This document shows, in pieces, positions 391 through 36,258 of a DNA stretch of 43,263 nucleotides (its first letter is position 1; each line of letters opens with the position of its first letter). This DNA comes from Gemmatimonadota bacterium (GTDB taxonomy: Bacteria; Gemmatimonadota; Gemmatimonadetes; Gemmatimonadales; GWC2-71-9): positions 1 to 43,263 of the forward strand of contig QHUT01000074.1 of the NCBI GenBank assembly GCA_003222055.1. Reading direction: 5' to 3'. Both the position numbers and the translations under genes were made by a program. Under the pieces are notes generated by a model, which saw only the letters and a list, made by a program, of their open reading frames with translations, did not search any database and was not told where the DNA came from.

Positions 391-1280
391 AGTCACGTTG
401 CACGACGCTACGACGCCACGTTGCACGGGGGACCGCCCTGGTTGCCGTGCTCGCGATCCTTGGCGTCGTGGCGTCGTGGCGTCGTGGAGCGGCTCAGAGC
501 GCGACCTGGACCGCTAGTCCCGCAACGCGCACCGTCGGCGACACGATCTGGCTCGAGCGGGAGATCCCGGTACCCGCTGGCTGGCAGGTGCGGGCCGGCA
601 AGCTCGAGGCGCGGGAGGACGTAGAGCCGCTGGGCGACCCGGCCGTGCTGCGGAGCCGCGCGGGCTGGGTGGTGCGCTATGGCGTCGCCGTGTGGACGCC
701 GGGAAGCCACACGCTCACCCTGCCGCCGCTCTGGCGCATCGGCCCGGATGGGCGCACCGACTCGACCGCCGGAGGTGCGGCGAGCTTTGCCGTGGCGAGC
801 GTGATCCCGGACACGTTGAAGACGCCCGACCCGCGCGGGCCGCTCGGACCGTTGCGGCTGGGGCGGCGCAATGCGGGGCCGCCGCTCGTCGCGGCGCTCG
901 TCGCGCTCGGACTGCTCGCGGCGGGCGTCGCCGCGCGGCGCCGGCCGCCGCGCGAGGTCCCGCCCGCGCCTCCCGCTCCACTGGAACGTGAGGTGCCGGA
1001 TGCGCGCTGGCTCGCCGCCGGCGAGCCGCGGGCCGTCGCCACGCGGGCGACGTGGCGGCTGCGCGCCGCGCTGGCGCGCGTGGTGCCGGGAGCCCATCTC
1101 GCGCTGGCCACTCCCGAGTGTCTCGCGGTGGTCGAGCGGGCGCGGCCGGCGGCCCCGATTGGCCAGCTGCGCGACGTGCTGGAACGGCTCGATCGTGTCG
1201 CCTTCGCCACCGCCGCGGGCTCGGACGTCGCGGCGCTCGCCGCGCAGGCGCGCCGCCTGGCCCAGGAGCTCGCGCCCTGA
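387..1280 (+). CDS. Bat-operon membrane-anchored protein with signal peptide (function unknown)
   Basis: The product is 297 residues and starts at an ATG overlapping the upstream stop. Residues 1-37 look like a signal peptide: a basic n-region with RRHVARG, then a hydrophobic run ending LGVVASW and a small-residue site near GAAQS. Residues about 38-150 look like a beta-rich periplasmic domain. A transmembrane segment follows at about 165-185 (LVAALVALGLLAAG), then an arginine stop-transfer cluster and a helical cytoplasmic tail of about 110 residues. The position between DUF58 and BatA matches the small DUF4381-like proteins of other Bat loci, but I recognise no family with certainty. The signal-peptide codons lie inside an inverted repeat also present at 16448-16537. 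Confidence 0.75.
   Translation: MKSRCTTLRRHVARGTALVAVLAILGVVASWRRGAAQSATWTASPATRTVGDTIWLEREIPVPAGWQVRAGKLEAREDVEPLGDPAVLRSRAGWVVRYGVAVWTPGSHTLTLPPLWRIGPDGRTDSTAGGAASFAVASVIPDTLKTPDPRGPLGPLRLGRRNAGPPLVAALVALGLLAAGVAARRRPPREVPPAPPAPLEREVPDARWLAAGEPRAVATRATWRLRAALARVVPGAHLALATPECLAVVERARPAAPIGQLRDVLERLDRVAFATAAGSDVAALAAQARRLAQELAP
394..487. repeat. Inverted repeat of 8-nt units encoding a signal peptide (copy 1)
   Basis: The left arm (394-426) carries CACGACGCTACGACGCCACG flanked on both sides by ACGTTGCAC. The right arm (461-487) carries three copies of GGCGTCGT, the reverse complement of the left-arm unit. About 34 nt separate the arms. The whole element is in frame and encodes the signal peptide of the gene starting at 387. 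A closely similar element lies at 16448-16537. Confidence 0.8.
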
Positions 1281-6302: not shown

Positions 6303-7858
6303 CGGTGCAGAGCGCCGTGCGGATCGCCGTACTGGCTCCCCAGGTGGCCGATCAGATCGCGGCCGGCGAAGTCGTGGAGCGGCCCGCCTCGGTCGTGAAG
6401 GAGCTCGTCGAGAACGCGCTCGACGCGGGTGCGCGGGCGATCCGCGTGGAGATCGAGGACGGCGGAAAGAGCCTGATCCGGGTGAGCGACGACGGCGAGG
6501 GGATGGGCCGCGCCGACGCGGAGCTGGCGCTGTCGCGCCACGCCACGAGCAAGATCCGCGAGGCCGCCGACCTGATCGGGGTCGGCACGTTCGGATTCCG
6601 GGGCGAGGCGCTGCCCGCGATCGCCTCGGTTTCCCGGTTCGAGCTCGAGACCTCGCCCGACGGCGTCACCGGCACGAGGCTGCGGCTCGTCGGGGGCAAG
6701 CGCGAAGCGGTCGACGACGTCGTGCGCCAGCGGGGGACGACGGTGACGGTGCGTGCCCTGTTCTTCAATACGCCCGCGCGCCGCAAGTTCCTGCGGGCTC
6801 AGGCGACGGAGACCCGCGCGGTCGCGGAAGCCGTCACGCTGCTGGCGCTGACCCGTCCCGAAACCGCGTTCACGCTGTCGAGCGACGAGCGCACGCTGAT
6901 CGACGTGCGCCCCGCGGCCGGTGCCATCGAGCGCGTCGCCGCGCTGTGGGGCGGGGCACTCGCCGACACGCTGCTCCCGATTGCCCATCGCGAGGGCCCG
7001 CTCGAGGTGCGCGGATTCGCCCAGCGTCCCGCGCAGGCGAAGCCTACCGGCCGGAAAGGCTACGTGTTCGTGCGCGGCCGGCCGGTCCGCGACCCGTTCA
7101 TCGTGCGCGCGGCCGAGGCCGGCTACCGCTCGACGCTCGCGCCGGACGACCGTCCCTCGGTGATCCTGTTCCTGGATCTGCCGGGGGACGCGGTGGACGT
7201 GAACGTCCACCCGTCGAAGCTGGAGGTGCGGTTCCGCGACAAGTTTTTCGTGGAGAAGGTGGTGCAGGAGGCGGTGCGGGGGGCGCTGGGGCCCCTCACT
7301 GCGGCGGCTCCACTAGGGGTTGGGGGTCAGGGCGTGGGGGTTGGGGGCTCATGGGCTGGCGTCGGCTTGCCCCCAAGCGCACCCCAGGAGCTGTTCGGCT
7401 CGGAATCCCTAGCCCCTAGCCCCCAACCCCTAGCCCCTCTCCTTCAAGTCTTCGACACCTACATCCTGTTCCAGTCCGACTCCGGAGTTGCGATCGTGGA
7501 CCAGCACTCGGCGCACGAGCGTGTGTTGTACGAGCGGGTGATGCGCCAGCTCACCGGCGACGGCGCACCGGCGCAGCGGCTGCTGCTGCCGCTCACGCTC
7601 GACTTTTCGGGCCCCGAGCTCGTCGCCGATCTCGCGGGTGGACGGTTCGGCGCGCTCGCCAACCGGCTGGAGCGCTTCGCAGCGACGTTCGCCTGTCGCG
7701 CGGCCATCAAGGCGGGCCAGCGGCTCGACGGAGAGGAGATGCGCGAGCTCGTGGTCCGCTTGCTCGGCGCGACGCTGCCGGCTCACGACGTGCACGGGCG
7801 ACCCACGATCGTACAGCTGCCCAAGGGCGAGCTGGAGCGGAGATTTGGGCGATCCTGA
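6299..7858 (+). CDS. mutL: DNA mismatch repair protein MutL
   Basis: MutL couples mismatch recognition to strand incision. The start is the GTG of a GTGA overlap with the BatD stop, giving 519 residues. The N-terminal GHKL ATPase shows ENALDAGA (near 38), DDGEGM (near 64) and GFRGEAL (near 98), then RKGYVFVRGRPVRD and VDVNVHPSKLEVRF. The C-terminal domain keeps an endonuclease-type motif, DQHSAHERVLYE, near residue 400, as in MutL of bacteria lacking MutH. The normal C-P-H-G-R-P motif reads D-V-H-G-R-P near residue 499, so one expected zinc-ligand cysteine is absent. The linker is short and encoded largely by G- and C-rich inverted repeats (7313-7438), which explains the modest length. Confidence 0.95.
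   Translation: MTVQSAVRIAVLAPQVADQIAAGEVVERPASVVKELVENALDAGARAIRVEIEDGGKSLIRVSDDGEGMGRADAELALSRHATSKIREAADLIGVGTFGFRGEALPAIASVSRFELETSPDGVTGTRLRLVGGKREAVDDVVRQRGTTVTVRALFFNTPARRKFLRAQATETRAVAEAVTLLALTRPETAFTLSSDERTLIDVRPAAGAIERVAALWGGALADTLLPIAHREGPLEVRGFAQRPAQAKPTGRKGYVFVRGRPVRDPFIVRAAEAGYRSTLAPDDRPSVILFLDLPGDAVDVNVHPSKLEVRFRDKFFVEKVVQEAVRGALGPLTAAAPLGVGGQGVGVGGSWAGVGLPPSAPQELFGSESLAPSPQPLAPLLQVFDTYILFQSDSGVAIVDQHSAHERVLYERVMRQLTGDGAPAQRLLLPLTLDFSGPELVADLAGGRFGALANRLERFAATFACRAAIKAGQRLDGEEMRELVVRLLGATLPAHDVHGRPTIVQLPKGELERRFGRS
7313..7438. repeat. Inverted repeat of CTAGGGG/TTGGGGG units in the mutL linker
   Basis: The left arm (7313-7349) contains CTAGGGGTTGGGGG and a degenerate second copy; the right arm (7407-7438) contains CCCTAGCCCCTAGCC followed by CCCAACCCCTAGCCCC. 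The arms are complementary over about 20 nt with mismatches and about 57 nt lie between them. The tract is in frame and encodes low-complexity Gly/Val and Ser/Pro/Leu linker residues between the ATPase and C-terminal domains. Confidence 0.8.
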
Positions 7859-8831
7859 GACCCCGCCCCTCACTCCCGTGCTCGTCGGTCCGACCGGCGT
7901 CGGCAAGACGGCGGTGGTCGCGGCGTGGGGGGCGCTCGAGCCCATCACGGTCGTCTCCGCGGACGCGCGCCAGGCGTACCGCGGCCTGGACATCGGGACC
8001 GCGAAGCCGCCGGGCGCGCTCCTGGCCCGCGTGCCGCACGTGGGCCTCGACGTGGTCGAGCCCGGCGAGCGCTACAGCGCGGGGCGATTCGCAAGCGACG
8101 CGGCGGCGTGGCTGGCCGGGATCCGCCGGGCCGGCCGCCAGCCGGTCGTGGTGGGCGGAACCGGGTTCTACGTGCGGGCGTTGGCGGAGGGACTGTTCCA
8201 CGAGCCGCCGCTCGAACCCGCTCGTCGCGAGCGGCTGCGCGCCTGGACGGCGCGATTGCCGGCCGCGCGGCTGGCGCATTGGGCGGCGCGCCTCGACCGC
8301 CGGTTCGCGGGGGGCGGGCGGCAGCGGGCGGCGCGTGCGATCGAGGTGGGGCTGCTCACGGGGCGCGGGCTGAGCTGGTGGCAGGAGCACGCGCGCGCGG
8401 TCGGCGCGATGCGTCCGTGGTACATTCATCTGACGCTGCCGCGCGATGCCCTCGAGCGGCGGATCGCCGAGCGGGTGGACGCGATGCTCGCGGCGGGGTT
8501 CGTCGACGAGGTCCGCCGCACCCTCGACCGGCCCGTCGGCCCGGACTCCCCGGGGCTGGACGGCGTGGGGTACCGCGAGGTGGTGGCCATGCTTGCGGGC
8601 CGGCTGCCGGAGCGGGGGCTGCGGGACGCGATCGTGGTGGCGACGCGCCGGTACGCGAAAAGACAAGAGACGTGGTTCCGAAATCAGCTGCGGGACGAGG
8701 GACGGGGGACGCGGGAGGGGTCGGTCTGGACACTCGATGCGGTGGAGGTGCCCGACGTGCTCGCTGCACGAATCGTAGATCGCTGGCACGCCGTTACCCG
8801 TCCCTCGTCCCCCATCCCCCGCCCCGTCTGA
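7845..8831 (+). CDS. miaA: tRNA dimethylallyltransferase MiaA
   Basis: MiaA adds a dimethylallyl group to the N6 of A37 in tRNAs that read codons beginning with U. The start is TTG at 7845, 14 nt inside mutL, with GGAG about 8 nt upstream, giving 328 residues. Visible motifs are the P-loop GPTGVGKT (about 14-21), DARQAYRGLDIGTAKP, where most homologues have D-S-x-Q, GGTGFYVRAL, and VGYREV. The last 30 or so residues are encoded by G/C-rich repeat sequence (8692-8720 and 8797-8829) and end in a proline/serine-rich tail unlikely to be conserved. The gene lies directly after mutL, a common pairing in bacteria. Confidence 0.95.
   Translation: MGDPETPPLTPVLVGPTGVGKTAVVAAWGALEPITVVSADARQAYRGLDIGTAKPPGALLARVPHVGLDVVEPGERYSAGRFASDAAAWLAGIRRAGRQPVVVGGTGFYVRALAEGLFHEPPLEPARRERLRAWTARLPAARLAHWAARLDRRFAGGGRQRAARAIEVGLLTGRGLSWWQEHARAVGAMRPWYIHLTLPRDALERRIAERVDAMLAAGFVDEVRRTLDRPVGPDSPGLDGVGYREVVAMLAGRLPERGLRDAIVVATRRYAKRQETWFRNQLRDEGRGTREGSVWTLDAVEVPDVLAARIVDRWHAVTRPSSPIPRPV
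8692..8829. repeat. Inverted GGGACGAGGGACGGG repeat at the 3' end of miaA
   Basis: The left arm (8692-8720) contains GGGACGAGGGACGGG followed by further GGGGAC-like units. The right arm (8797-8829) contains CCCGTCCCTCGTCCC, its exact 15-nt reverse complement, followed by degenerate C-rich units running to the miaA stop. Both arms are coding. The units resemble the G-rich tracts at 33981-34011 and 35578-35608. Confidence 0.78.
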
Positions 8832-12308: not shown

Positions 12309-12671
12309 TTACCGCCCTCGGGCGCCTAGCGACCTATACAGTCGCCACGTCAGAAACCCCGCGCGTCTTCGCAGATCCTCCAACGTTTCCCACTGTCCGC
12401 TCGACAGCATCTTGAGTTCTCGTGCGACGCGAAACGCGTACCCGAGTTCCGCCAACGAACCGATGGAGATGTCGAGAAACCGCCGATACTCTAGCGCCCC
12501 GTGTTTAGCTGATCCCTCGACGATGTTCGCGGCAGCCGAAAACGCAGCCCGTCGCGTCTGGGATGTCAACCCGTAGAGCTCCTCTCTCGGGAACGACCTC
12601 GTCGCCCGGTAAGTCTCAAGCACGAGCTTGTGACACTCCTGCCATGCTTTGAGTCGCTCATAGGGTGGCAT
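12309..12671 (-). CDS. Four-helix-bundle protein (23S rRNA intervening-sequence type)
   Basis: The product is about 120 residues and begins PPYERLKAWQECHKLV, with the family hallmarks YGLTSQTRRAAFSAAANIVEG and a later SLAELGYAFRVARELK. These match the small four-helix-bundle proteins first found encoded in intervening sequences of 23S rRNA and since found as free-standing genes; their function is unknown. I chose ATG 12671 because the family begins at the PPYERLK region; a TTG at 12680 would add three residues. The local base composition is visibly less GC-rich than its neighbours, and the gene is alone on the reverse strand between birA and coaX, both suggesting acquisition. Confidence 0.9.
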   Translation of the reverse strand: MPPYERLKAWQECHKLVLETYRATRSFPREELYGLTSQTRRAAFSAAANIVEGSAKHGALEYRRFLDISIGSLAELGYAFRVARELKMLSSGQWETLEDLRRRAGFLTWRLYRSLGARGR

Positions 12672-12760
12672 GCTTACCAACGTACCGTGAGTATTCCGGA
12701 CGGTCGCATCATTTCATTGCAAGTGGTGCCCAAAAAACGCGGTCAGACGTGATCTGGCGC

Positions 12761-12800
12761 CCTCTACCGCCCTCTACCATCCTCTACCGCCCTCTAGCAT
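12761..12800 (+). repeat. Four tandem decamers CCTCTACCGC upstream of coaX
   Basis: Four exact-length 10-nt units run head to tail: CCTCTACCGC, CCTCTACCAT, CCTCTACCGC and CCTCTAGCAT. The last unit contains TAGCAT (12795-12800), 11 nt before the coaX ATG, which could serve as a -10 box. The array would then fill the -35 region, so copy number could influence expression; that is inference. Confidence 0.75.
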
Positions 12801-12811
12801 CTTCTTGCCCC

Positions 12812-16447: not shown

Positions 16448-16920
16448 CACGTTGTACGACGCCACGACGCCACGTTGCAAGAGGGCTCGCATGGACGCGT
16501 CTTGTCGTGGAACTTGGCGTCGTGGCGTCATGTAACGCTCTCGTCGTTAGCTGCGCCCCCGCCACTCGGTACGAGCCCCCGGATGCGCTGCGGGGCTATG
16601 AGATCCTCGTCACGAGCCAGGATTCGCTCGGTCGGGGGATCGCGCAGGGGCTCGCGCGGCGGGGCTTCCGGGTGCGGAGTCGCGTCCGGGGCGGCGGCCG
16701 CCCGACGGCGTACCTCGTCGCCTTCATATTCCGGGAAACCGAGCCCCCGGCGCTCACCTGGCTGCACGTGCGGCTCGCCGACACGCGCACTGGGGCGATC
16801 GTCGCGGCGGTGTCGGCCCCGCTCGACTCGCTGGGCCCGAGCGCGGAGCAGCGGGCCCGGGCGATCGTCGACTCGTTGGCGGCGAACCCGGCGCTGCGCC
16901 GAGCCCTCGCACCCACTTGA
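16444..16920 (+). CDS. Putative lipoprotein, unknown function
   Basis: The product is 158 residues from the GTG of a GTGA overlap with the NlpC/P60 gene. The N-terminus (TRCTTPRRHVARG) is basic, followed by a hydrophobic run ending LGVVASCNALVVSC; either cysteine could be a lipobox, the second (LVVSC, then APAT) being the better fit. The mature part, about 120 residues, is a small mixed domain (YEILVTSQDSLGRGIAQGLA; TWLHVRLADTRTGAIVAAV) reminiscent of envelope lipoproteins that sense or assemble, but I recognise no family. The signal-peptide codons are made of an inverted repeat shared with the gene at 387. Confidence 0.75.
   Translation: MTRCTTPRRHVARGLAWTRLVVELGVVASCNALVVSCAPATRYEPPDALRGYEILVTSQDSLGRGIAQGLARRGFRVRSRVRGGGRPTAYLVAFIFRETEPPALTWLHVRLADTRTGAIVAAVSAPLDSLGPSAEQRARAIVDSLAANPALRRALAPT
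16448..16537. repeat. Inverted repeat of 8-nt units encoding a signal peptide (copy 2)
   Basis: The left arm (16448-16480) contains ACGACGCCACGACGCC flanked by CGTTG-type ends; the right arm (16501-16537) contains GGCGTCGTGGCGTC flanked similarly. The arms are complementary over nearly 30 nt with a few mismatches and are about 20 nt apart. They encode the n-region and h-region of the lipoprotein's signal peptide. Copy 1 is at 394-487. Confidence 0.8.
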
Positions 16921-17362: not shown

Positions 17363-19015
<1,653 letters not shown>

Positions 19016-19056
19016 GGACCCGCAGAAGCAGCAAAACGCGAAGAATCGGCAGCACG

Positions 19057-19086
19057 CGCCCCGGGGTGATCCCCCGGGGCGTTCTT
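19057..19086 (+). terminator. Intrinsic terminator after groEL
   Basis: A perfect 10-bp GC stem, CGCCCCGGGG / CCCCGGGGCG with a 5-nt TGATC loop (19057-19081), is followed by TTCTT. It lies 41 nt after the groEL stop and separates groESL from the pilin genes. Confidence 0.88.
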
Positions 19087-19114
19087 GTGTGGTCACGCTC
19101 ACGTTACTCGCTAT

Positions 19115-19152
19115 ACCAAGGACACATCTTATAGCAACCAAGGATCTTATAG
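19115..19152 (+). promoter_or_regulatory. Direct repeat with TATAG boxes upstream of pilin genes
   Basis: ACCAAGGA followed by TCTTATAG occurs twice (19115-19134, with a 4-nt insertion, and 19137-19152). Each copy ends in a TATAG(C/T) -10-like box. The region is markedly AT-richer than the rest of the window and is the only place for a promoter of the pilin operon. No convincing -35 box is visible, so an activator site overlapping the promoter is a possibility. Confidence 0.4.
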
Positions 19153-19186
19153 TGTCGGGAGCACGACTGCCACCAGGTAGGGACGA

Positions 19187-19660
19187 ATGGGGATGAGACG
19201 ACAAGGGACGCGCGCACTCGCCGGATTCACGTTCATCGAAATGTTGATCGTGTTCGTCGTGCTGGGCGTGATGACGACGATGATGGTCAGGTCCGTCAGG
19301 GGCTTGTGGCTGGGGAGCGCGCGCCGCTCCGCCACCCGTGACATCACCGCGTACCTGTTCCGGGGACGCGCGATCGCCGTCCAACAGAGCCGCGCGGCGT
19401 GGGTGGTCCGCAGCGGCGACATCTTGAAGGTCATGGTCGATTCGTCGGGGACGCCTGTGCAACTCGGCACTCAGATCAACTTCTTCCAGCGCTACGGCGC
19501 GCACCTGTTCGCGTCCCCGAAGGACACGGTCGCGTTCGATCCCCGCGGGTTCGCGCCGAACGTGACGTTGGCGCCCAAGTTCATCATCAACCTCGGGGGC
19601 CGCACCGATACGGTCTGCGTGACCGGCCTCGGCAAGATCACTACTCGGAGCTGTCCATGA
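19187..19660 (+). CDS. Type IV minor pilin, GspH/FimT-like
   Basis: The product is 157 residues. A short basic leader ends in glycine before FTFIEMLIVFVVLGVMTTMM, a class III prepilin signal cleaved by PilD-type peptidase with the methylated Phe at +1 and Glu at +5. The rest (RGRAIAVQQSRAAWVV, FDPRGF) matches GspH/FimT pseudopilins. ATG 19187 is preceded by GGTAGGGA; a second ATG is at 19193. It starts a four-gene minor-pilin run and overlaps the next start as ATGA. Confidence 0.88.
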   Translation: MGMRRQGTRALAGFTFIEMLIVFVVLGVMTTMMVRSVRGLWLGSARRSATRDITAYLFRGRAIAVQQSRAAWVVRSGDILKVMVDSSGTPVQLGTQINFFQRYGAHLFASPKDTVAFDPRGFAPNVTLAPKFIINLGGRTDTVCVTGLGKITTRSCP

Positions 19661-20004
19661 CGCCACACTCGGAACGCGGCTTCACGATCGCTGAGCTGAT
19701 GGTCGCGGTCGTGATCTTCAGTGTAGGCCTGCTCGCCATGGCGGGAACGGCCGCCGTGATCATGACGACGCTGACGAGCACGCAGTCCCGGACCATCGCG
19801 GCGGGCGTGGCGGAGTCGCGCTTCGAGCGCCTCCGCACGACCGGGTGCGCCAGCCGCGCGAGCGGCTCGGCCAAAACGCGGGGCATCGCCGAAGTGTGGA
19901 CGCTCAACCACCTGGCGCGTGCGGACGACGTGACGGTCGCCGTCACGTTCCTCAGCAGCCATCAGCCCCGCACCGAGACCTTCCGGAGTTTCATGCCATG
20001 CTGA
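19657..20004 (+). CDS. Type IV minor pilin, PilV-like
   Basis: The product is 115 residues from the ATG of an ATGA overlap. A short leader ends at SERG before FTIAELMVAVVIFSVGLLAM, the prepilin cleavage site and hydrophobic stem, with Glu at +5. The rest (QSRTIAAGVAESRFERLRTT, GCASRASGSA) is the pattern of PilV-like minor pilins, including a pair of cysteines (one near residue 68, one at the C-terminus) that could form the usual disulfide. It overlaps the next gene's start by 7 nt. Confidence 0.87.
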   Translation: MTPHSERGFTIAELMVAVVIFSVGLLAMAGTAAVIMTTLTSTQSRTIAAGVAESRFERLRTTGCASRASGSAKTRGIAEVWTLNHLARADDVTVAVTFLSSHQPRTETFRSFMPC

Positions 20005-20945
20005 CCGGGAGAGCCGTGCGGGCGCGCCGGGCCGGGTTCACGCTGATCGAGCTGCTCATCAGCATGGTGCTCATGGGCCTGGTGTCGGGAGCCATCGTCA
20101 AGCTGCTGCTGCGGCAGCAGCGGTTCTACAACAGCACGACCGACCTGATCCAGACGCGGCAGCAGATCCGCCAGGCGGCGGCGATGCTCCCGTCGGACTT
20201 GCGGGGGATCTCGAGCGTCGCCGGCGACATCTACGCAATGTCGGACTCGGCGATCGAGTTCCGCTCGGTGTTCGGCACCTCCGTGGTGTGCGCCAACATC
20301 GGTGGAATGCTCTCGACCGTCCCGCGCGTCCTGGCCCGGAACTCGACGATGACCAGCTGGGCCAGGCCGCCGGCGCTCGGGGACTCACTCGCCGTTTACA
20401 ACAACGGACCGACCGCGGCGCTGGCCGACGACGGCTGGACACGCTTCCAGATCACCGCCATCCCGACCCCGGTAACGACCAACGTCGCCAACGGCTGCCC
20501 GGTGACGACCGGGCTCACACAGGCGGGGGACGTCTCCGCGATCAATCCGAGCTACCAGCTCACGCTCTCGCCCGCGGCCCCCGCGAGCATCGCCGTGGGC
20601 GCGGGGATTCGGTTCTTCCGCCGCGTGCGCTACCGGATCTACAGAGAGACCGACAACCAGTGGTACATCGGGTTCTTCGAGTGCCTCGCCGGTCGGACAC
20701 CGGCCTGCGACCTCACGAAGCCGATCGCCGGCCCGTTCCAGCCGTACGCGCCGACCGGGACCAGCGGGATGCAGTTCGCCTATTACGACTCCACCGGTGC
20801 GGTAACGGCGGATCCCCTCCAGGTCGCGCGCATCAGCCTCGTCGTGCGGGGGCAGGCGGCGGCGCTGATGAACCTGAGTGGGGCAGGTGGCACGCTGTTC
20901 CGCGACTCGCTGCGCATCGAAGTCGGGCTGCGCAACCGCAGGTAA
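19998..20945 (+). CDS. Type IV minor pilin, PilW-like
   Basis: The product is 315 residues from ATG 19998. The leader ends at RRAG before FTLIELLISMVLMGLVSGAI, a canonical prepilin site. The length, an N-terminal helix continuing RQQIRQAAAMLPSDLRG, and a large beta-rich C-terminal domain fit PilW. Such proteins prime pilus assembly and adorn the tip. Several cysteines (near 95, 165 and 230) could form disulfides. Confidence 0.87.
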   Translation: MLTGRAVRARRAGFTLIELLISMVLMGLVSGAIVKLLLRQQRFYNSTTDLIQTRQQIRQAAAMLPSDLRGISSVAGDIYAMSDSAIEFRSVFGTSVVCANIGGMLSTVPRVLARNSTMTSWARPPALGDSLAVYNNGPTAALADDGWTRFQITAIPTPVTTNVANGCPVTTGLTQAGDVSAINPSYQLTLSPAAPASIAVGAGIRFFRRVRYRIYRETDNQWYIGFFECLAGRTPACDLTKPIAGPFQPYAPTGTSGMQFAYYDSTGAVTADPLQVARISLVVRGQAAALMNLSGAGGTLFRDSLRIEVGLRNRR

Positions 20946-20978
20946 CCGTGCAGACGCTTGGGAAGGAACGAGGCACGT

Positions 20979-22118
20979 ATGCGTAGGACACTGCAATCGC
21001 AGCAGGGCGTGGCGATGATCATGGCCCTTGGGGCCATCGTGATCATCGGGGTGCTCATGGGGAGCGTGCTGTTCGTGGCGACGCAGGACTACCGCGTCGG
21101 CGGCAACACGGTGCGCATGACGCGCGCCGCCGCGGCCGCCGAGCTGGGCTTGAGCCGCGTGCCGCTCGACTGGAATCTCGCCGATAACACGGGACTCACG
21201 GTCGGTAACACGCGCACCAAAGCCTATACCGCGCCCCGCGGCGCCACGGCCAACGTCGTCATCACGCGCCTCCCCGGGCCGTTCTTCTGGGCGGTCTCCG
21301 AAGGCTCCGCCGGGGGCCAGGGCAGCCAGGCCTCGGCGCGCCGTCGCTACGGCACGTTGTTCCGGCTCGACCTTCCACAGATGAACTTCCTGGGCGCGGT
21401 CACGACCCAGGGTAATACCACCGTTTCCGGGAACGTCACGGTGCGCGGAAACGATACCCTCCCCCCCGGGTGGGCCGCTTGCGGCAGCAGCCAAAACGTG
21501 GCCGGGGCGGCGATATCTCCTACAACCACCGTCAACACGAACGGCGCGAACGTGTCCGTCAGGGGGAGTCCGGACGTGCTCACGACTCCCGCGGCCGCCG
21601 ACTCGAACACGTACTTCACTTACGGGAGCTCGAGCTACCAGTCGCTCGCGGCGACAGCCAACCTGACGTATGCGGGCGGCACGTTGCTCAACGGCGTGGG
21701 GCCAATCGCAGTCGGCAGCGTGTGCCAGACCAGCGTGACGCCGGCCAACTGGGGAGAGCCCAATCATACGACCCCGGCGGGCGCGTGCGATACGTACTTC
21801 CCCGTCATCCACGTGCTGGGCGACCTGAAGGTCACCACCGGGCGCGGTCAAGGCATCCTGCTGGTCGACGGTAACTTTACCGTGGCCGGCAACTTCACGT
21901 TCACTGGCGCCGTCATCGCGCGCGGGGGCCTGAAAATGTCCGGGACCGGCAACAAGATCATGGGCGCCGTGATGGCGGCGAGCGTTTCGGTAGACGACGA
22001 TGTCTCGCTCTCCGGGAACACATCACTGCTGTACTCTTCCTGCGCCCTCTCGGCTGCCCTGTCGGCATCGGCCTACCCCACGCGGGCCATTCGACGGGCC
22101 TGGGTGGATCTCTACTAG
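20979..22118 (+). CDS. Type IV pilus assembly protein, PilX-like
   Basis: The product is 379 residues from ATG 20979, preceded by GGAAGGA about 10 nt upstream. It has the PilX N-terminal signature (QGVAMIMALGAIVIIGVLM, then ATQDYRVGGNTVRMTRAAAA) rather than a processed prepilin glycine-phenylalanine site. The C-terminal 230 residues form a glycine/threonine/asparagine-rich repeat region (GNTTVSGNVTVRGNDT; GNFTVAGNFTFTGAVIARG) with the look of a polymer-forming beta-solenoid. The stop codon lies inside the left arm of the large inverted repeat that follows. No major pilin or PilY1 gene is in the window. Confidence 0.82.
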   Translation: MRRTLQSQQGVAMIMALGAIVIIGVLMGSVLFVATQDYRVGGNTVRMTRAAAAAELGLSRVPLDWNLADNTGLTVGNTRTKAYTAPRGATANVVITRLPGPFFWAVSEGSAGGQGSQASARRRYGTLFRLDLPQMNFLGAVTTQGNTTVSGNVTVRGNDTLPPGWAACGSSQNVAGAAISPTTTVNTNGANVSVRGSPDVLTTPAAADSNTYFTYGSSSYQSLAATANLTYAGGTLLNGVGPIAVGSVCQTSVTPANWGEPNHTTPAGACDTYFPVIHVLGDLKVTTGRGQGILLVDGNFTVAGNFTFTGAVIARGGLKMSGTGNKIMGAVMAASVSVDDDVSLSGNTSLLYSSCALSAALSASAYPTRAIRRAWVDLY

Positions 22119-22226
22119 ACGTACAGACGCGCAGACGCAACAGGGGTGAACAGGCTGGAGGGAGCAGGGGTTCCGTGCTCCCTCCTTGCCGTTCTCCCCT
22201 GTGCGTCTGTGCGTCTGTGCGTCTAG
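22115..22226. repeat. Large imperfect inverted repeat (cruciform) after the pilin operon
   Basis: The outer arms 22115-22146 and 22196-22226 are reverse complements over 31 nt with one inserted base; the two mismatches become G-U wobbles in RNA. Inside, separated by 10-nt internal loops on each side, is a perfect 10-bp stem GGAGGGAGCA/TGCTCCCTCC (22157-22166, 22176-22185) with a 9-nt loop. The left arm begins within the PilX-like stop codon. It could end pilin transcription, but there is no clean U-tract. Confidence 0.85.
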
Positions 22227-22280
22227 TCTTTTGTGCGTCTGTGCGTCTAGTCTCTTGTGCGTCTGTGCGTCTAGTGTTGG
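22201..22280 (+). repeat. Ten exact-phase octamers (GTGCGTCT array)
   Basis: The sequence is ten consecutive 8-nt blocks in perfect phase: three GTGCGTCT, one AGTCTTTT, two GTGCGTCT, one AGTCTCTT, two GTGCGTCT and one AGTGTTGG. A 24-nt higher-order unit is visible. The first three units are also the right arm of the inverted repeat. The array ends 10 nt before the -10-like box of the next gene, so it occupies its -35 region. Confidence 0.88.
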
Positions 22281-22290
22281 CCGGTCCTTG

Positions 22291-22296
22291 TATCTT
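22291..22296 (+). promoter_or_regulatory. TATCTT -10-like box 7 nt before ATG 22304
   Basis: TATCTT lies 7 nt from the start codon. If used as a -10 box, transcription would begin at or next to the ATG. No recognisable -35 box is present; that position is filled by the octamer array. Confidence 0.45.
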
Positions 22297-22303
22297 TGGC
22301 CTC

Positions 22304-24373
22304 ATGCCTGCACCCTCGGGTGAGCGCGCGACCCTGTCGCGCGACCTCGCGGACTTCCTGATCGAGCTCTCCATCGCGCTGCACAAGCACGCCATGTATC
22401 CGGAGGGCCACCCGTCGCTCGCGCCCGCGGCGGCGGGCGTCACCCGGCGCGCCGGACTGCTGCTCGAAGACCGCGCCACCCTGTCGCTCGGCGTCGCACG
22501 TCAACAACTGGTGATCGAGGGCGTGGCCACCGATCCGAAACATCCGGTATTGGCGGAGCTCGCCGCCCGGCTGCACCGTCACCACCTCGGCGCCGTCACG
22601 TTCCGACGCGGGGTCGAGGTGGGCGAGATGGCGAGCGTCCTGAAGACGCTGGCCGTGGACGCGGAGCGCAGCGGGCAGCCGCTCGGCCTGGGCGCGCCGG
22701 AGCGGTTGCGCGCCTGGACCTGCGTGCAGCTGCACCCGCTCACCTACGAGCGCCTCGAGCTGGTGGACGACGGGGCGCCCACGTCCGAGCGCGGGGCGCG
22801 AGCCGCGCAGCTGTGGGTGGGCCTCGCCCGCGCCGCGCTCACGGCTCAAGCGGGGGACGACCGGCCGACCCCGACCGAACCGGCGGTCATCGCCCGCGCC
22901 ATCGATGAGCACCCTCGGACCGATGCCGCCGCGTACGACCAGGTGATCGTGGGCTACCTGCTGCAGATCGCGGACGAGCTGAAGACCGCGGGCAGCGCAG
23001 AAGGGGTGGCGTTGCGGCGCCGTACGTCCCGGCTGATCCGGGCCCTCAAGCCGGAGACGCTGCGGCGGCTGGTCGAGATGGGCGGCGACTTCGTGCAGCG
23101 GCGCAACTTCGTGTACGACTCGACCGATGGCATGGCGGTCGACGCCGTGCTCGACATCGTCCAGGCCGCCGCCGACTCGTCGCACCAGACGATTTCGCAC
23201 TCGCTGGTCCGGATGCTGTCCAAGCTGGCCGCGCAGGCCGAGGCAGGTGTCGCGGACGTGCGGCCCCAAGCGGACGCCGCCTTGCGCGACCAGGTACGCC
23301 GGCTGCTCCAGGGCTGGACCCTGACGGACCCGAACCCGGGCGCGTACGGCGCGGCGCTGCAGCGCATGGCGCGGGCCGCGCCCGAGCGCGCGGCGACGGC
23401 CGACGGGGAGCACCCGACCGAGCCGGATCGCATCGTTGCCATGGCGCTCGAGATCGACGCCGTTAACCCACACGTGCTCGCCGCCGCGGATCGCGTGGTG
23501 CAGGAGGGGCGGCTCGGCCAGCTGCTCGACGCGCTGGCCGAAGTGCCCGAGTCGCAGGGCGCAGCACCCGAGGTGTGGGCACGCCTCGCGACGGCGGACG
23601 TCGTGCGGCAGCTCGCCACGCGTGATCCGGTGGATTTCAAGACGCTCGAGCGGCTGGTGCCCCGGGTGGGGCTTCCGGCGGCGGGGCCGCTGCTGGACGC
23701 GCTCGCCGCAGCCGAAGCGCGGGGCGTGCGCCGTGGCCTGCTGGCCCAGCTGGCCAAGATGGGGTCGGAGATCGCTCCGGTGGTCATCCCGCGGCTCGAG
23801 GACCCGCGCTGGTACGTCACCCGCAACATGCTCGTGTTGCTGGAGGACCTGTCGCCGCTCCCGCCGGGGTTCTCCGCCGCCGCCTATGTGCGCCACGTGG
23901 ACCCCCGCGTCCGCTGGCAAGCCGTGAAGGTCCAGGTCAAGCTTCCCGCCGAACGTGACGCGGCACTCGCGCTGGGCCTGCAGGATCCGGATCCGCGCAC
24001 GCTGCGGCTGGCGCTGGGGCTGGCCGTGGCGCTCCAGAGCTGCCCCGACGGGGCGGTTCCCGCGCTGACGGGGCGCGCCATGGATCGCGCACTGCCACCC
24101 GACGTGCGGACCCTGGCCGTTCGCGCCCTCGGCTATGCCCGGGCGCCGGCGGCGCTCGAGGTCCTGCTGCGGCTGGCCTCGGCGGGTCGAACCCTGTTCG
24201 GACGGGAGAAGCTGCCGCCCAAGTCCGCGGAGCTCCTTGCGGCGTTGGCGGGTCTCGCGACCGCGTGGCAAGCGGATCCGCGGGCGCGGGCGGTGCTCCG
24301 CCGGGCTGCGGCGTCGGACGACCCCGACATCCGGGCCGCGGCGGACGCGGGCGGCCGGGGGAGCGGACTCTGA
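22304..24373 (+). CDS. HEAT-repeat-like protein with shared N-terminal domain
   Basis: The product is 689 residues from ATG 22304. Residues about 8-130 form a domain (FLIELSIALHKHAMYPEGHP, then beta strands LVIEGVATDPKHPVL and GAVTFRRGVEVGEM) that recurs at the N-terminus of the next gene. From about residue 440 the protein consists of short helical pairs with HEAT-like spacing (GLLAQLAKMGSEIAPVVIPR; RWYVTRNMLVLLEDL; VRTLAVRALGYA), ending in a helical tail. No catalytic motif is seen, so a scaffold or regulatory partner of the adjacent HD-GYP protein is likely. Its stop overlaps the next gene's probable CTG start as CTGA. Confidence 0.8.
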   Translation: MPAPSGERATLSRDLADFLIELSIALHKHAMYPEGHPSLAPAAAGVTRRAGLLLEDRATLSLGVARQQLVIEGVATDPKHPVLAELAARLHRHHLGAVTFRRGVEVGEMASVLKTLAVDAERSGQPLGLGAPERLRAWTCVQLHPLTYERLELVDDGAPTSERGARAAQLWVGLARAALTAQAGDDRPTPTEPAVIARAIDEHPRTDAAAYDQVIVGYLLQIADELKTAGSAEGVALRRRTSRLIRALKPETLRRLVEMGGDFVQRRNFVYDSTDGMAVDAVLDIVQAAADSSHQTISHSLVRMLSKLAAQAEAGVADVRPQADAALRDQVRRLLQGWTLTDPNPGAYGAALQRMARAAPERAATADGEHPTEPDRIVAMALEIDAVNPHVLAAADRVVQEGRLGQLLDALAEVPESQGAAPEVWARLATADVVRQLATRDPVDFKTLERLVPRVGLPAAGPLLDALAAAEARGVRRGLLAQLAKMGSEIAPVVIPRLEDPRWYVTRNMLVLLEDLSPLPPGFSAAAYVRHVDPRVRWQAVKVQVKLPAERDAALALGLQDPDPRTLRLALGLAVALQSCPDGAVPALTGRAMDRALPPDVRTLAVRALGYARAPAALEVLLRLASAGRTLFGREKLPPKSAELLAALAGLATAWQADPRARAVLRRAAASDDPDIRAAADAGGRGSGL

Positions 24374-32823: not shown

Positions 32824-34012
32824 CGGCGCGCTGCGCCGCGCGGGTCCTCCCGTCGTCGTCGGACTGGCGCTCGTGCTCGGGGGGATCACCGTCGGGTACG
32901 GGTGGATCGTGGCGCGACACCTGCGCGACGACGCGCGTCAGACGAGCGCGCTGCTGGGGCGCGTGTTCGCCGGACTGAACGATCCCGGCCCGGATGCGGC
33001 CACGGATGCGCTGCTCGATCTCGCCCGGCAGGTGCGTTCGCTCGGTATCCCCATCGTCGTGACCGACGCGGCGGGACGCATCACGGCCCTGGACAACGCC
33101 CCGCCGAGCGTGCGCGCCGACACGGCGCGGCTGCGGGCCTGGATCACCCAGCTCGACGCCGAGAATGCGCCGGTGGTGCAGCCCGGAGTCGGCACGATCC
33201 ACTACGGGGCGGGCCCGACGGCACGCACGCTGACGGGCCTCGCAGCCCTGGAAGGCGCCGTGCTCGTGTGCCTCGCGCTGCTCGCGGCGTGGGCCTACCG
33301 CTCGCAGGTCGCGGGGGCGCGGGACCGGCTGTGGGTCGCCATGGCGCGCGAATCGGCGCACCAGCTCGGGACGCCCCTGATGAGCCTCACGGGATGGATT
33401 GCCTACCTGCGGGAAAATCCGGATACCACCGGGGCCGAGCTGGCCGATCATCTTCAGGCGGATGCGGAGCGACTCGAGCGGGTGGCCAAGCGGTTCGAAC
33501 GCATCGGCCGCCCGGCCCGGCGCGAGCCGGTGGGCCTCGGGGCCGTGGCGGAGCGCGTCGTGAGCTACTTCCGGCCCCGGCTGCCGACGCTCGCGAGCCC
33601 GGTGGCCCTGGCGCTGCGCGCCACTGGGCCCGGTCCCACCGCGTTGGGGGATCCCGTGCTCGTGGAATGGGCGCTCGAAGCCGTGATCAAGAACGCCATC
33701 GATGCGCTGTCGGGGCGCGGTGGCAGCATCGACGTCACCGTCGACGCGGTCCCGCGGACGGCCCGCATCTCGGTGCGCGACGACGGCCCCGGCGTCGCCC
33801 CCGAGGTCCGCGCGAACCTGTTCGAGCCGGGGGTCTCCACCAAGCCGGGCGGGTGGGGCATCGGCCTGGCGCTGGCGCGCCGCATCGTCGAGCAGCAGCA
33901 CGGGGGGCGGCTGCTGTACCGTCCGGCGCCGGGCGGAGAGGGGACCGAGTTCGTGCTGGAGTTTCCGCTGGTACAAGAGCGGGACGGGGGACGGGGGAGG
34001 GGGGACGGGTGA
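32813..34012 (+). CDS. Sensor histidine kinase
   Basis: The product is 399 residues from GTG 32813 inside the end of serS. It has two membrane helices (about 12-33 and 146-163) flanking a small periplasmic sensor. A dimerization/phospho-acceptor helix with ESAHQLGTPLMSL follows (His183, the A-H-Q-x-G-T-P-L variant of the H-box), then the ATPase N-box NAIDALSG, DDGPGVAPEV and GIGLALARRIV. The C-terminal dozen residues (ERDGGRGRGDG) are encoded by G-rich repeat sequence and are probably not part of the fold. No partner response regulator is adjacent on the same strand; the lone receiver at 30096 is a candidate. Confidence 0.93.
   Translation: MARNGALRRAGPPVVVGLALVLGGITVGYGWIVARHLRDDARQTSALLGRVFAGLNDPGPDAATDALLDLARQVRSLGIPIVVTDAAGRITALDNAPPSVRADTARLRAWITQLDAENAPVVQPGVGTIHYGAGPTARTLTGLAALEGAVLVCLALLAAWAYRSQVAGARDRLWVAMARESAHQLGTPLMSLTGWIAYLRENPDTTGAELADHLQADAERLERVAKRFERIGRPARREPVGLGAVAERVVSYFRPRLPTLASPVALALRATGPGPTALGDPVLVEWALEAVIKNAIDALSGRGGSIDVTVDAVPRTARISVRDDGPGVAPEVRANLFEPGVSTKPGGWGIGLALARRIVEQQHGGRLLYRPAPGGEGTEFVLEFPLVQERDGGRGRGDG
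33981..34011 (+). repeat. G-rich repeat GGGACGGGGGACGGGGGAG at the kinase/helicase junction
   Basis: A 31-nt G-rich tract of CGGGGGA-type units ends at the GTGA overlap. It differs at only one position from 35578-35608. It forms the C-terminus of the kinase and contains the helicase Shine-Dalgarno region and start codon. Four or more G-runs make a G-quadruplex possible. Confidence 0.85.
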
Positions 34013-36258
34013 CGCTCCCGCTCAATCCCGCTCAAGAGGCTGCAGTCCGCCACCCTGGTGGACCGCTGCTGGTGCTCGCCGGGGCCGGCTCGGGCAAGAC
34101 GCGCGTGTTGACCGCCCGCATCGCCCACCTGATCCAGGAGCGCGGCGTGGCCCCCTCGCGGATCTTCGCGGTCACCTTCACCAACAAGGCGGCGGGAGAG
34201 ATGCGAGCCCGGGTCGGGGCGTTGCTCAGTGCCGATCCGCGCGGCCTGTGGATCGGGACGTTCCACTCGCTTTCGGCGCGGCTGCTGCGGCGTGAAGCAG
34301 CCCACCTCGGCTTCGGGCCCAACTTCACGATCTACGACCAGGACGATTCCGAGGCGCTGGTCAAACGGTTGCTCGAGCAGCGTGGCCATTCGCCCAAGGC
34401 CAATCCGCCCCGTGCGATCCACGCCATCATTTCCGGGGCGAAGAACCGCATGCTCCTCCCCGAAGAGCTGGGCGCGAGCGCCGAAAGCCCACTGGAGCGA
34501 GTGGCGGCGGAGATCTATGCAGTGCTCGGCCCCACCCTGAAGCAGGCCAACGCGATGGATTTCGACGACCTGCTCCTCTTGCCCCTCACGCTCTTCGCCG
34601 AGCATGCCGAGCGGCTCGCGTACTGGCAGCGGCGTTTCGACCACGTGCTGGTGGACGAGTTCCAGGACACCAACGCGGCGCAGTACCGGCTGGTGCGCCA
34701 GCTGGCGGCGCAGCACACCAATCTCTGCGTGGTCGGCGACGACGATCAGGCGATTTACGGCTGGCGCGGGGCGGACGTGCGGCACATGCTCTCGTTTCAG
34801 CGCGACTTCCCCGGGACCACCCTGATCAAGCTCGAGCAAAACTACCGCTCCACCCAGGTGATCCTCGACGCCGCGAACGGGGTAATCGCGGAGAACGGGC
34901 GCCGGCTGGGCAAGACACTGTTCACCGCGAAGCAGGGGGGCGAGCCGGTCACTCTGCTCACCGCCGCCGATGAGCGCGACGAGGCGGAGTGGTTGGCCGC
35001 GGAGCTGGCGCGTCGCGCCGCCCAAGACGACGTTCCTTATGAAGGAATGGCCGTGCTGTACCGCACCAACGCGCAATCCCGCCCGCTTGAGGAGGCGTTC
35101 CGGTTCCGGGGGATCCCCTACCGCCTGGTGGGCGCCGTGAGCTTTTACGAGCGCCGCGAGGTCAAGGACGTACTCGCCTACCTGCGCCTCATCGCCAACC
35201 CTGCGGACGACCAGGCCTTCCTGCGCGTGGTGAACGTTCCGCGCCGGGGCATCGGCGACGCGTCACTCGCGCAGCTCGTCCGCGCGGCGACGCAGTGGAG
35301 ACAGTCGCTGTTCGAGACCGCCAGGGCGGCGGGCCGGATCCCCGACCTGCGGCCCAACGTGCGGGACGCGTTCGCCGGCGTGGCCCGCCTGCTCGAAGAC
35401 CTGCGGGGACGGTACGCCCACGCGGACCCCGCCACGGCGCTGGAGCAGACGATCGCGGCCGTGGGCTATCCGCAGTACCTCGCCGAGGAGGGCCCCGAGG
35501 GGATCGAGCGGCTGGAGAACGTGCAGGAGCTGATCGCGGGCGCCGCGCAGTGGGCGGAGACGGCGGAGGAAGACGATGGGACGGGGGACGGGGGAGAGGG
35601 GACGGGTGCATCGCTGATCGAGCGGTACCTCACGCAGGCGGCGCTCGTGACGTCTGCAGATCAGGGCAGCGGCGACCCGACTGGCGTGACGCTGATGACC
35701 GTCCACATGGCGAAGGGTCTCGAATGGCCGGTGGTGACGCTCGGGGGTCTCGAAGACGGACTGTTCCCGCTCGCCCGCGCCGCGGGTGAGCCGGGGGGGC
35801 TCGAGGAGGAGCGACGACTGTGCTACGTGGGGCTCACGCGCGCGCGCGAAAAATTGTATCTCTCATGGGCGCGCACGCGGTACCGGAACGGCCGGCTCGA
35901 GCTGTCGGAGCCGTCCCGCTTTCTCGAGGCGGTTCCCGCGGGCGTGCTGGAGGAGCGGAGCACGACGCCGCTATGGGACCGCGGGGCGCGGGCGGCGCGC
36001 CGCAATGCCGGGGACGCGCGGGCGCGCGGCGCCACGCCGGCGGACCTCGACTGGGAGGTCGAGGTCTCGCAGGATGTCTCGCGCTACACCGCGGGCGAGC
36101 GCGTGCGACATCGCAAGTTCGGGAGCGGGGTGGTGCGCGCCGTCTCGGGCGCCGGTCGGGAGCTGAAGGTCACGGTGGAGTTCGACGATCGGGAGATCGG
36201 CACCAAGCAATTGCTCGTCGCCTACGCCGGGCTCGAGCGCGAGTGGGAGAGCGCATGA
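34009..36258 (+). CDS. pcrA: ATP-dependent DNA helicase, PcrA/UvrD type
   Basis: The product is 749 residues from the GTG of a GTGA overlap with the histidine-kinase stop. SF1A helicase motifs are in order: Walker A GAGSGKTRVLTARIA (motif I), TFTNKAAGEMRAR (Ia), DEFQDTNAAQY (II), GDDDQAIYGWRGA (III), LEQNYRST (IV), TVHMAKGLEWPVV (V) and YVGLTRAREKLYLS (VI). The C-terminal Tudor-like module (RVRHRKFGSGVVRAV) is typical of PcrA, which binds RNA polymerase. Residues around 525-535 (DDGTGDGGEGTG) are encoded by a copy of the G-rich repeat. Roles are nucleotide-excision and mismatch repair and transcription-replication conflict resolution. Confidence 0.95.
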   Translation: MTLPLNPAQEAAVRHPGGPLLVLAGAGSGKTRVLTARIAHLIQERGVAPSRIFAVTFTNKAAGEMRARVGALLSADPRGLWIGTFHSLSARLLRREAAHLGFGPNFTIYDQDDSEALVKRLLEQRGHSPKANPPRAIHAIISGAKNRMLLPEELGASAESPLERVAAEIYAVLGPTLKQANAMDFDDLLLLPLTLFAEHAERLAYWQRRFDHVLVDEFQDTNAAQYRLVRQLAAQHTNLCVVGDDDQAIYGWRGADVRHMLSFQRDFPGTTLIKLEQNYRSTQVILDAANGVIAENGRRLGKTLFTAKQGGEPVTLLTAADERDEAEWLAAELARRAAQDDVPYEGMAVLYRTNAQSRPLEEAFRFRGIPYRLVGAVSFYERREVKDVLAYLRLIANPADDQAFLRVVNVPRRGIGDASLAQLVRAATQWRQSLFETARAAGRIPDLRPNVRDAFAGVARLLEDLRGRYAHADPATALEQTIAAVGYPQYLAEEGPEGIERLENVQELIAGAAQWAETAEEDDGTGDGGEGTGASLIERYLTQAALVTSADQGSGDPTGVTLMTVHMAKGLEWPVVTLGGLEDGLFPLARAAGEPGGLEEERRLCYVGLTRAREKLYLSWARTRYRNGRLELSEPSRFLEAVPAGVLEERSTTPLWDRGARAARRNAGDARARGATPADLDWEVEVSQDVSRYTAGERVRHRKFGSGVVRAVSGAGRELKVTVEFDDREIGTKQLLVAYAGLEREWESA
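35578..35608 (+). repeat. G-rich repeat copy inside the helicase gene
   Basis: A 31-nt tract identical to 33981-34011 except for one base (A instead of G at position 20). Here it is read in frame as Gly/Asp/Thr residues in a surface loop of the helicase before motif V. It is in the same orientation as the first copy, 1.6 kb away. Confidence 0.87.

Follow-up and report, generated by a model that had tools for sequence, protein, structure and literature searches.

A hairpin beside a Gemmatimonadota pilin operon is probably a gene-less member of an IVS-like element family associated with PF05635 genes

The strong hairpin that follows the pilin genes in the 43,263-nt stretch of Gemmatimonadota DNA analysed here (the window) belongs to a dispersed repeat family, and its arms are shared with inverted repeats that enclose genes of the PF05635 (23S_rRNA_IVP) family. 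We consider it probable (roughly seven chances in ten) that it represents a gene-less, MITE-like copy within a hairpin-element family resembling the intervening sequences (IVS) of 23S rRNA. A full-length member of such a family would consist of inverted arms, usually arrays of 7–10-nt units, round a gene for a four-helix-bundle PF05635 protein (S23p/IVP, Avd-related), and the window copy would have retained its arms, with a short stem inside them, while the gene is absent; no gene was found in the window element itself.

The hairpin spans 22114–22227, immediately after the pilin genes, and is followed by a repeat array and the start of a HEAT-like gene:

22114..22139, plus strand: left outer arm, CTAG and three octamers of the GACGNNNA type; it gives the PilX-like gene its TAG stop, and the same arm occurs in other copies
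22140..22156, plus strand: second tier of the left arm (ACAGGGGTGAACAGGCT); the GGTGAACAG tier is common to other copies and to the gene-bearing loci L198, L202 and L203
22157..22185, plus strand: inner stem-loop, with a perfect 10-bp stem (22157–22166/22176–22185)
22186..22227, plus strand: right arm, comprising the second tier, then TGTGCGTC three times and TAGT
22208..22279, plus strand: 24-nt unit three times (TGTGCGTCTGTGCGTCTAGT + 4 nt), the first overlapping the right arm; G000 species only
22288..22293, plus strand: promoter-like TTGTAT, recognised from conserved columns (TNNTAT in orthologues), 10 nt before the HEAT-like ATG at 22304

Complementarity is 92% between the outer arms (22114–22139/22202–22227) and 80% between 22140–22169 and 22173–22202. 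Plus-strand RNA folds at -115.3 kcal/mol, as against -65.2 ± 4.2 kcal/mol for 200 dinucleotide shuffles (z = -12.0), and minus-strand RNA at -93.8 kcal/mol (z = -10.6). A first-pass annotation had remarked that mismatches are preserved as G–U wobbles in RNA, with which the stronger folding of the plus strand agrees, the numbers of G–U pairs in the sense and antisense folds (52 vs 29) not differing significantly (p = 0.13). That annotation was right about the perfect inner stem and about the hairpin as a whole, but its 10-nt internal loops prove to be mostly paired (GGGG/CCCC, GAAC/GTTC and a single T·T mismatch), and the left arm, while it does overlap the PilX-like stop codon, starts at 22114 rather than in the TAG (22116–22118). 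The names given to the neighbouring genes stand in part: the pilin operon genes upstream have N-terminal methylation motifs, and the gene after the HEAT-like one encodes an HD-domain protein, but no Pfam family was found in either the PilX-like or the HEAT-like protein. No Rfam family was found in the window.

A special link of the hairpin with pilins is not borne out. The hairpin precedes the HEAT-like gene in G000 (the genome of the window), G009, G004, G001 and G002, and on contig L112; in three species it comes after PilX, in two after groEL, which shows that the junction hairpin is not tied to pilin. In G000, G001 and G004, the pilin operon (window 19015–22118) separates groEL from the HEAT-like gene; it is missing there from G009 and G002, in which groEL, the hairpin and the HEAT-like gene are directly consecutive. 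The sequence of the inner stem-loop is specific to this junction and is kept in all five of these genomes, its stem (GGAGGGAGC) lacking only the first G in G009. Contig L112 (VAWH01000105.1), which has a HEAT-like gene at 92.5% identity as well as the octamer hairpin, is labelled Actinobacteria, and is probably a mis-binned Gemmatimonadota contig.

Ten octamers had been described in the array, and they are indeed in phase (22200–22279), but they are not uniform, only seven being TGTGCGTC; a better description is a 24-nt unit (TGTGCGTCTGTGCGTCTAGTCTYT; 2.8 copies, 97% alike) that starts within the right arm. Might the array be a phase-variable promoter spacer, altering promoter geometry in steps of 8 nt, as had been proposed? 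It does lie immediately 5' of the HEAT-like gene and differs between species, which would suit a spacer. Nevertheless, the unit is 24 nt long, five orthologous junctions lack the array (the triplication being found in G000 only), and the conserved promoter-like motif (GGYCCTNNTATC, then ATG) is downstream of the promoter-proximal copy, which is identical in sequence whatever the copy number, so that there is no basis for an 8-nt geometry switch. Octamer numbers differ among orthologous junctions, all of which retain TNNTAT a short distance before the ATG. A sigma-70 scan of the junction found no site of that type; we rejected a promoter switch on this ground and on that of the orthologues without the array, and the spacer explanation seems to us scarcely credible. 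The 24-nt triplication would be a later slippage event.

The element is not specific to the pilin/HEAT junction: octamers of this family are found at about 20 places in the G000 genome (Gemmatimonadota, 3.69 Mb in 173 contigs; 32 BLAST pieces, 23 octamer-pair matches). The family is represented in 10/10 genomes of the genus, all drafts sampled through matches and stretches, with genes called by a simple codon model; it is only patchy in other genera, and a reversed-pattern control gave zero matches in the genus genomes. When 84,980 species genomes were scanned with a 19-mer, 55 loci were recovered, of which 51 carry the label Gemmatimonadetes; the wider pattern (GACGNNYA)3 occurred in 33 of the 395 genomes of the phylum, nearly all from one family, with a preferred NNY that varies by genus. 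Three tiers are common to the 39 distinct full copies, namely CTAG(ACGCACAG)n, [GC]GGTGAACAG and a variable inner stem, and many copies extend the pairing outward via GGCAA/TTGCC. Copies are about 85–130 bp long or more, and the octamer number varies too widely between them for a single alignment; near-identical cores are found at different loci. There are also solo arrays, one of which, after groEL in G001 and G004, precedes a stem-loop resembling an ordinary terminator.

Elsewhere in the window are four further features:

396..491, no strand assigned: gene-less hairpin, unit ACGACGCC, with arms matching those at the PF05635 genes of G000:C7 (L226) and G009 (L223)
16450..16537, no strand assigned: gene-less hairpin, unit ACGACGCC, 3 nt past an NlpC/P60 stop (16447), with arms matching at the same two places (G000:C7, L226; G009, L223)
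12372..12659, minus strand: PF05635 (23S_rRNA_IVP) gene (G000:C116:12372-12659, E 1.5e-26)
12758..12805, no strand assigned: 10-mer array (CGCCCTCTAC) upstream of that gene, for which no inverted partner was found on the other side

More G-rich heptamer repeats (GGGGTTG, GGGACGA, GGGACGG) occur at window positions 7313–7433, 8689–8825, 33981–34014 and 35578–35606, the first two as inverted pairs and the last three inside called genes. In a seed-based search for hairpins in sampled stretches (about 380 kb), all of the ten strongest intergenic examples had recognisable 7- or 8-mer repeats in their arms, and none was between divergent genes; one of the ten (C30:58840) has octamers that were missed by the automatic lag test, and three are near the shuffle maxima. 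A few hairpins within called genes also have arms of 7- or 8-mer repeats. At one site, beside a gene that we take from its translation to be dnaN, the hairpin unit differs by species (GACGCACA, GACGGGTA, GGCGCCGA or GACGGCTA). At another, the C155 site, G004 (L154, G004:C22) has a different palindrome, CAGATCCTTCGC..CTCAGGATGACA..TGTCATCCTGAG..GCGAAGGATCTG, instead of an octamer hairpin.

Like REPs (PMC3733652), these elements are palindromic, intergenic and 3' of genes, and Y1 genes are found in 6/10 genus genomes, so it is necessary to consider whether they are REP/BIME-type elements mobilized by a RAYT (Y1) transposase. This we rejected, because G001, where matches are most numerous (34), yielded no Y1 gene. 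In addition, the Y1 genes that we examined are not adjoined by octamer arms, and the octamer elements are much longer than REPs. A REP-like sequence (GTAG-TCCCGCCCTGACGGGCGGG) is beside an octamer element in G003 (L153, G003:C207), and a Y1-transposase remnant is within one in G002 (L136, G002:C47:30800-33400), as would be expected of later insertions; REP/RAYT elements seem to use octamer hairpins as places to land. Mobilization by a Y1 enzyme is, in our opinion, very improbable.

Position relative to genes is strongly biased. Both neighbouring genes were called for 35 copies, and these are convergent in 16 cases, tandem in 17 and divergent in two, compared with 5/64/33 for the remaining gaps of 60 bp or more at these loci (chi-square p = 1e-8). 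Stop codons are often inside the element, the array most often starting at the last base of a TAG; in an alternative placement, a TGA stop is 21–23 nt within the element. The idea that a strong RNA hairpin occupies a 3'-end position thus holds good for the window copy, right after a stop codon, and for the family. It might be supposed from this convergent enrichment and divergent depletion that the hairpins are host-made terminators or stabilizers of mRNA 3' ends, the octamers having spread by slippage and gene conversion and the PF05635 genes merely sharing their sites. That five sister species retain the hairpin before the HEAT-like gene would fit, as would the occurrence of different hairpins at the same gene ends in different species. 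On the other hand, no intrinsic terminator (a short G+C-rich stem followed by a T run in the DNA, the U-tract of the RNA) was called at the window hairpin, whereas one was called after groEL.

The first-pass annotation had missed the dispersed family and its association with PF05635 genes. In G000 (C30:8382-8913), a 23S_rRNA_IVP gene is enclosed by octamer arms. PF05635 genes were found in 10/10 genus genomes (2–11 matches each) and in none of 14 control genomes. Inverted repeats, counted by one method when scoring at least 30 within about 220 bp of a gene, surround 48 of the 65 PF05635 genes of the genus and three of 326 other genes (p = 3e-43), these 65 not being independent, as orthologous sites were counted separately (independence does hold for the 12 genes from plasmids and for those from Chloroflexi described below). 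The strongest of the control exceptions is a gene between two complete heptamer hairpins, and no such inverted repeat was detected at the remaining 17 of the 65. Arm periods are clear in 34 of the 48: 7 nt (20 cases), 8 nt (five), 9 nt (five) and 10 nt (four). A full-length example in the genus has (GACGCACA)n arms round a gene of about 125 codons, 534–584 bp in total. As regards the window copy, the arms at the PF05635 genes of L198, L202 and L203 are 88–96% identical to it, including the GGGGAGAACAG/GCGGTGAACAG tier. The two gene-less ACGACGCC hairpins provide another case from the window, their arms matching those at L226 and L223. Because arms are shared in this way, we infer that the gene-less form derives from the gene-bearing one, and the element presumably moves, or has moved. 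That this family of hairpins surrounds PF05635 genes far oftener than it does other genes argues against a host-made terminator or stabilizer. Among members of PF05635 with a solved structure is XCC0516 (2gsc), the locus tag of which we take to indicate Xanthomonas campestris; to our knowledge, the family is not a known transposase. No paper linking PF05635 to tandem-armed hairpins was found in the open-access literature.

Some orthologous sites are filled by the whole element and others are free of it. At a convergent junction of two genes that we read from their translations as guaA and ptsN, just 37–38 nt separate the end-of-guaA marker from the ptsN-end motif in G003 and G008, and in other genomes the guaA stop is immediately followed by a PF05635 element, with arms starting GGCGTTRC or GCGTTRC. 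G000 and G006 have octamer units in the arms at this one site, G001 and G004 have heptamers and G002 a 15–16-mer, and in G007 the arms are hardly repeated. At the mnmG site, the PF05635 gene is kept in six species and the octamer is GACGCACA, GACGCCCA or GACGGCTA, the same in both arms. Since both arms at a site change unit together, one arm would seem to act as template for the other; such arm-to-arm copying would give concerted arms, so matching arms alone are no proof of selection on RNA. No target-site duplication was identified at the element-free and filled orthologous sites, where the element-free state could have arisen by deletion, and no site was found to be gene-bearing in one species and gene-less in another. 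The existence of orthologous gene ends without the whole element is a further difficulty for a host-made terminator or stabilizer, which we regard as unlikely.

The association is not confined to Gemmatimonadota. All 12 of the plasmid PF05635 genes tested (ten from cyanobacteria, one from Azospirillum lipoferum 4B and one from Gemmatirosa) have inverted repeats exceeding every shuffle (scores 29–61 vs shuffle maxima of 20–26), most of them visibly heptamer arrays, Stanieria being the weakest case. In control stretches of 30–40 kb from three of the plasmids, 96 other genes scored at most 35 (the highest an IS transposase), compared with 52–55 for the PF05635 genes. Inverted repeats also flank 3/3 PF05635 genes in a Chloroflexi MAG (scores 51–67), and one PF05635 gene in an Anabaena assembly, a doubtful case, scores 27. 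Heptamer-armed PF05635 genes are present within cas operons (cas6|cas4; cas10|cmr3) of Anabaena sp. 90 (L266/L315), Pseudanabaena (L273) and Picosynechococcus (L269). A survey of CRISPR loci includes 23S rRNA IVP among its domains (PMC10910872), and insertion of such elements may be the reason.

What might the hairpin do? Judging from position and folding, transcripts through the element would form the hairpin, which might be cut by RNase III, or might end or stabilize the 3' end, in the manner of rRNA intervening sequences. We would go further only tentatively, at somewhat below even odds, in suggesting that hairpins with tandem arms round PF05635 genes form a class of mobile element widespread in bacteria (Gemmatimonadota, Cyanobacteria, Chloroflexi, Alphaproteobacteria); that much unexplained intergenic DNA made up of 7–10-mers, including the heptamers of Xanthomonas and Nostoc, represents their arms or gene-less remains; that the hairpin is the target of the four-helix-bundle protein, which may work together with a reverse transcriptase, as the related Avd does; and that arm-to-arm copying keeps the arms matched even as their unit changes. 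Neither PF05635 proteins nor short-tandem-repeat hairpins, common as both are in bacteria, have been explained, and a fixed association across several phyla provides a likely substrate for the protein and a likely origin for the repeats, and may account for many unexplained 7–8-base bacterial repeats. It would also give a reason for the presence of PF05635 genes inside cas operons without their being parts of CRISPR systems, and the origin and spread of 23S rRNA intervening sequences become testable in genetically tractable cyanobacteria and proteobacteria.

How do these elements compare with known systems? Like MITEs, the window copy has terminal inverted repeats and no gene, and the genus contains longer, gene-bearing relatives with the same ends; unlike the situation with MITEs, the longer form encodes no known transposase. 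REP/BIME sequences, like the window family, are dispersed intergenic palindromes, mostly 3' of genes, but a REP is a palindrome of 20–40 bp with a GTAG or CGTC tag (PMC3733652), whereas the present copies, of about 85–130 bp or more, are two to four times longer, have tandem arms and show neither an established GTAG/CGTC-tag architecture nor dependence on Y1 genes.

The closest parallels among short repeats are the inverted heptamers near stop codons in Xanthomonas (GGGAATC) and Nostoc (GGGGAYT) (PMC4692102; the main text makes no mention of an S23/PF05635 gene). These too are intergenic inverted pairs of short tandem units, depleted between divergent genes and varying in length between species. 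The window unit, GACGNNYA, differs in being 8 nt long and in having no GGG, so that it cannot form G-quadruplexes, but other window hairpins do carry G-rich 7-mers. Finally, in the 23S rRNA IVS of Coxiella burnetii, which has been termed selfish, a 28-bp stem accompanies an S23p gene and is excised by RNase III (PMC4990558), and PF05635 proteins resemble the Avd protein of diversity-generating retroelements (PMC10053308). The window family shares with such intervening sequences the inverted terminal repeats that form a long stem, and the PF05635 protein encoded by its gene-bearing relatives; it differs from them in that the window copy is between protein genes rather than in a helix of 23S rRNA (as are the examined guaA/ptsN, mnmG and cas operon elements), in that the window copy is gene-less, and in that the arms are usually tandem arrays.
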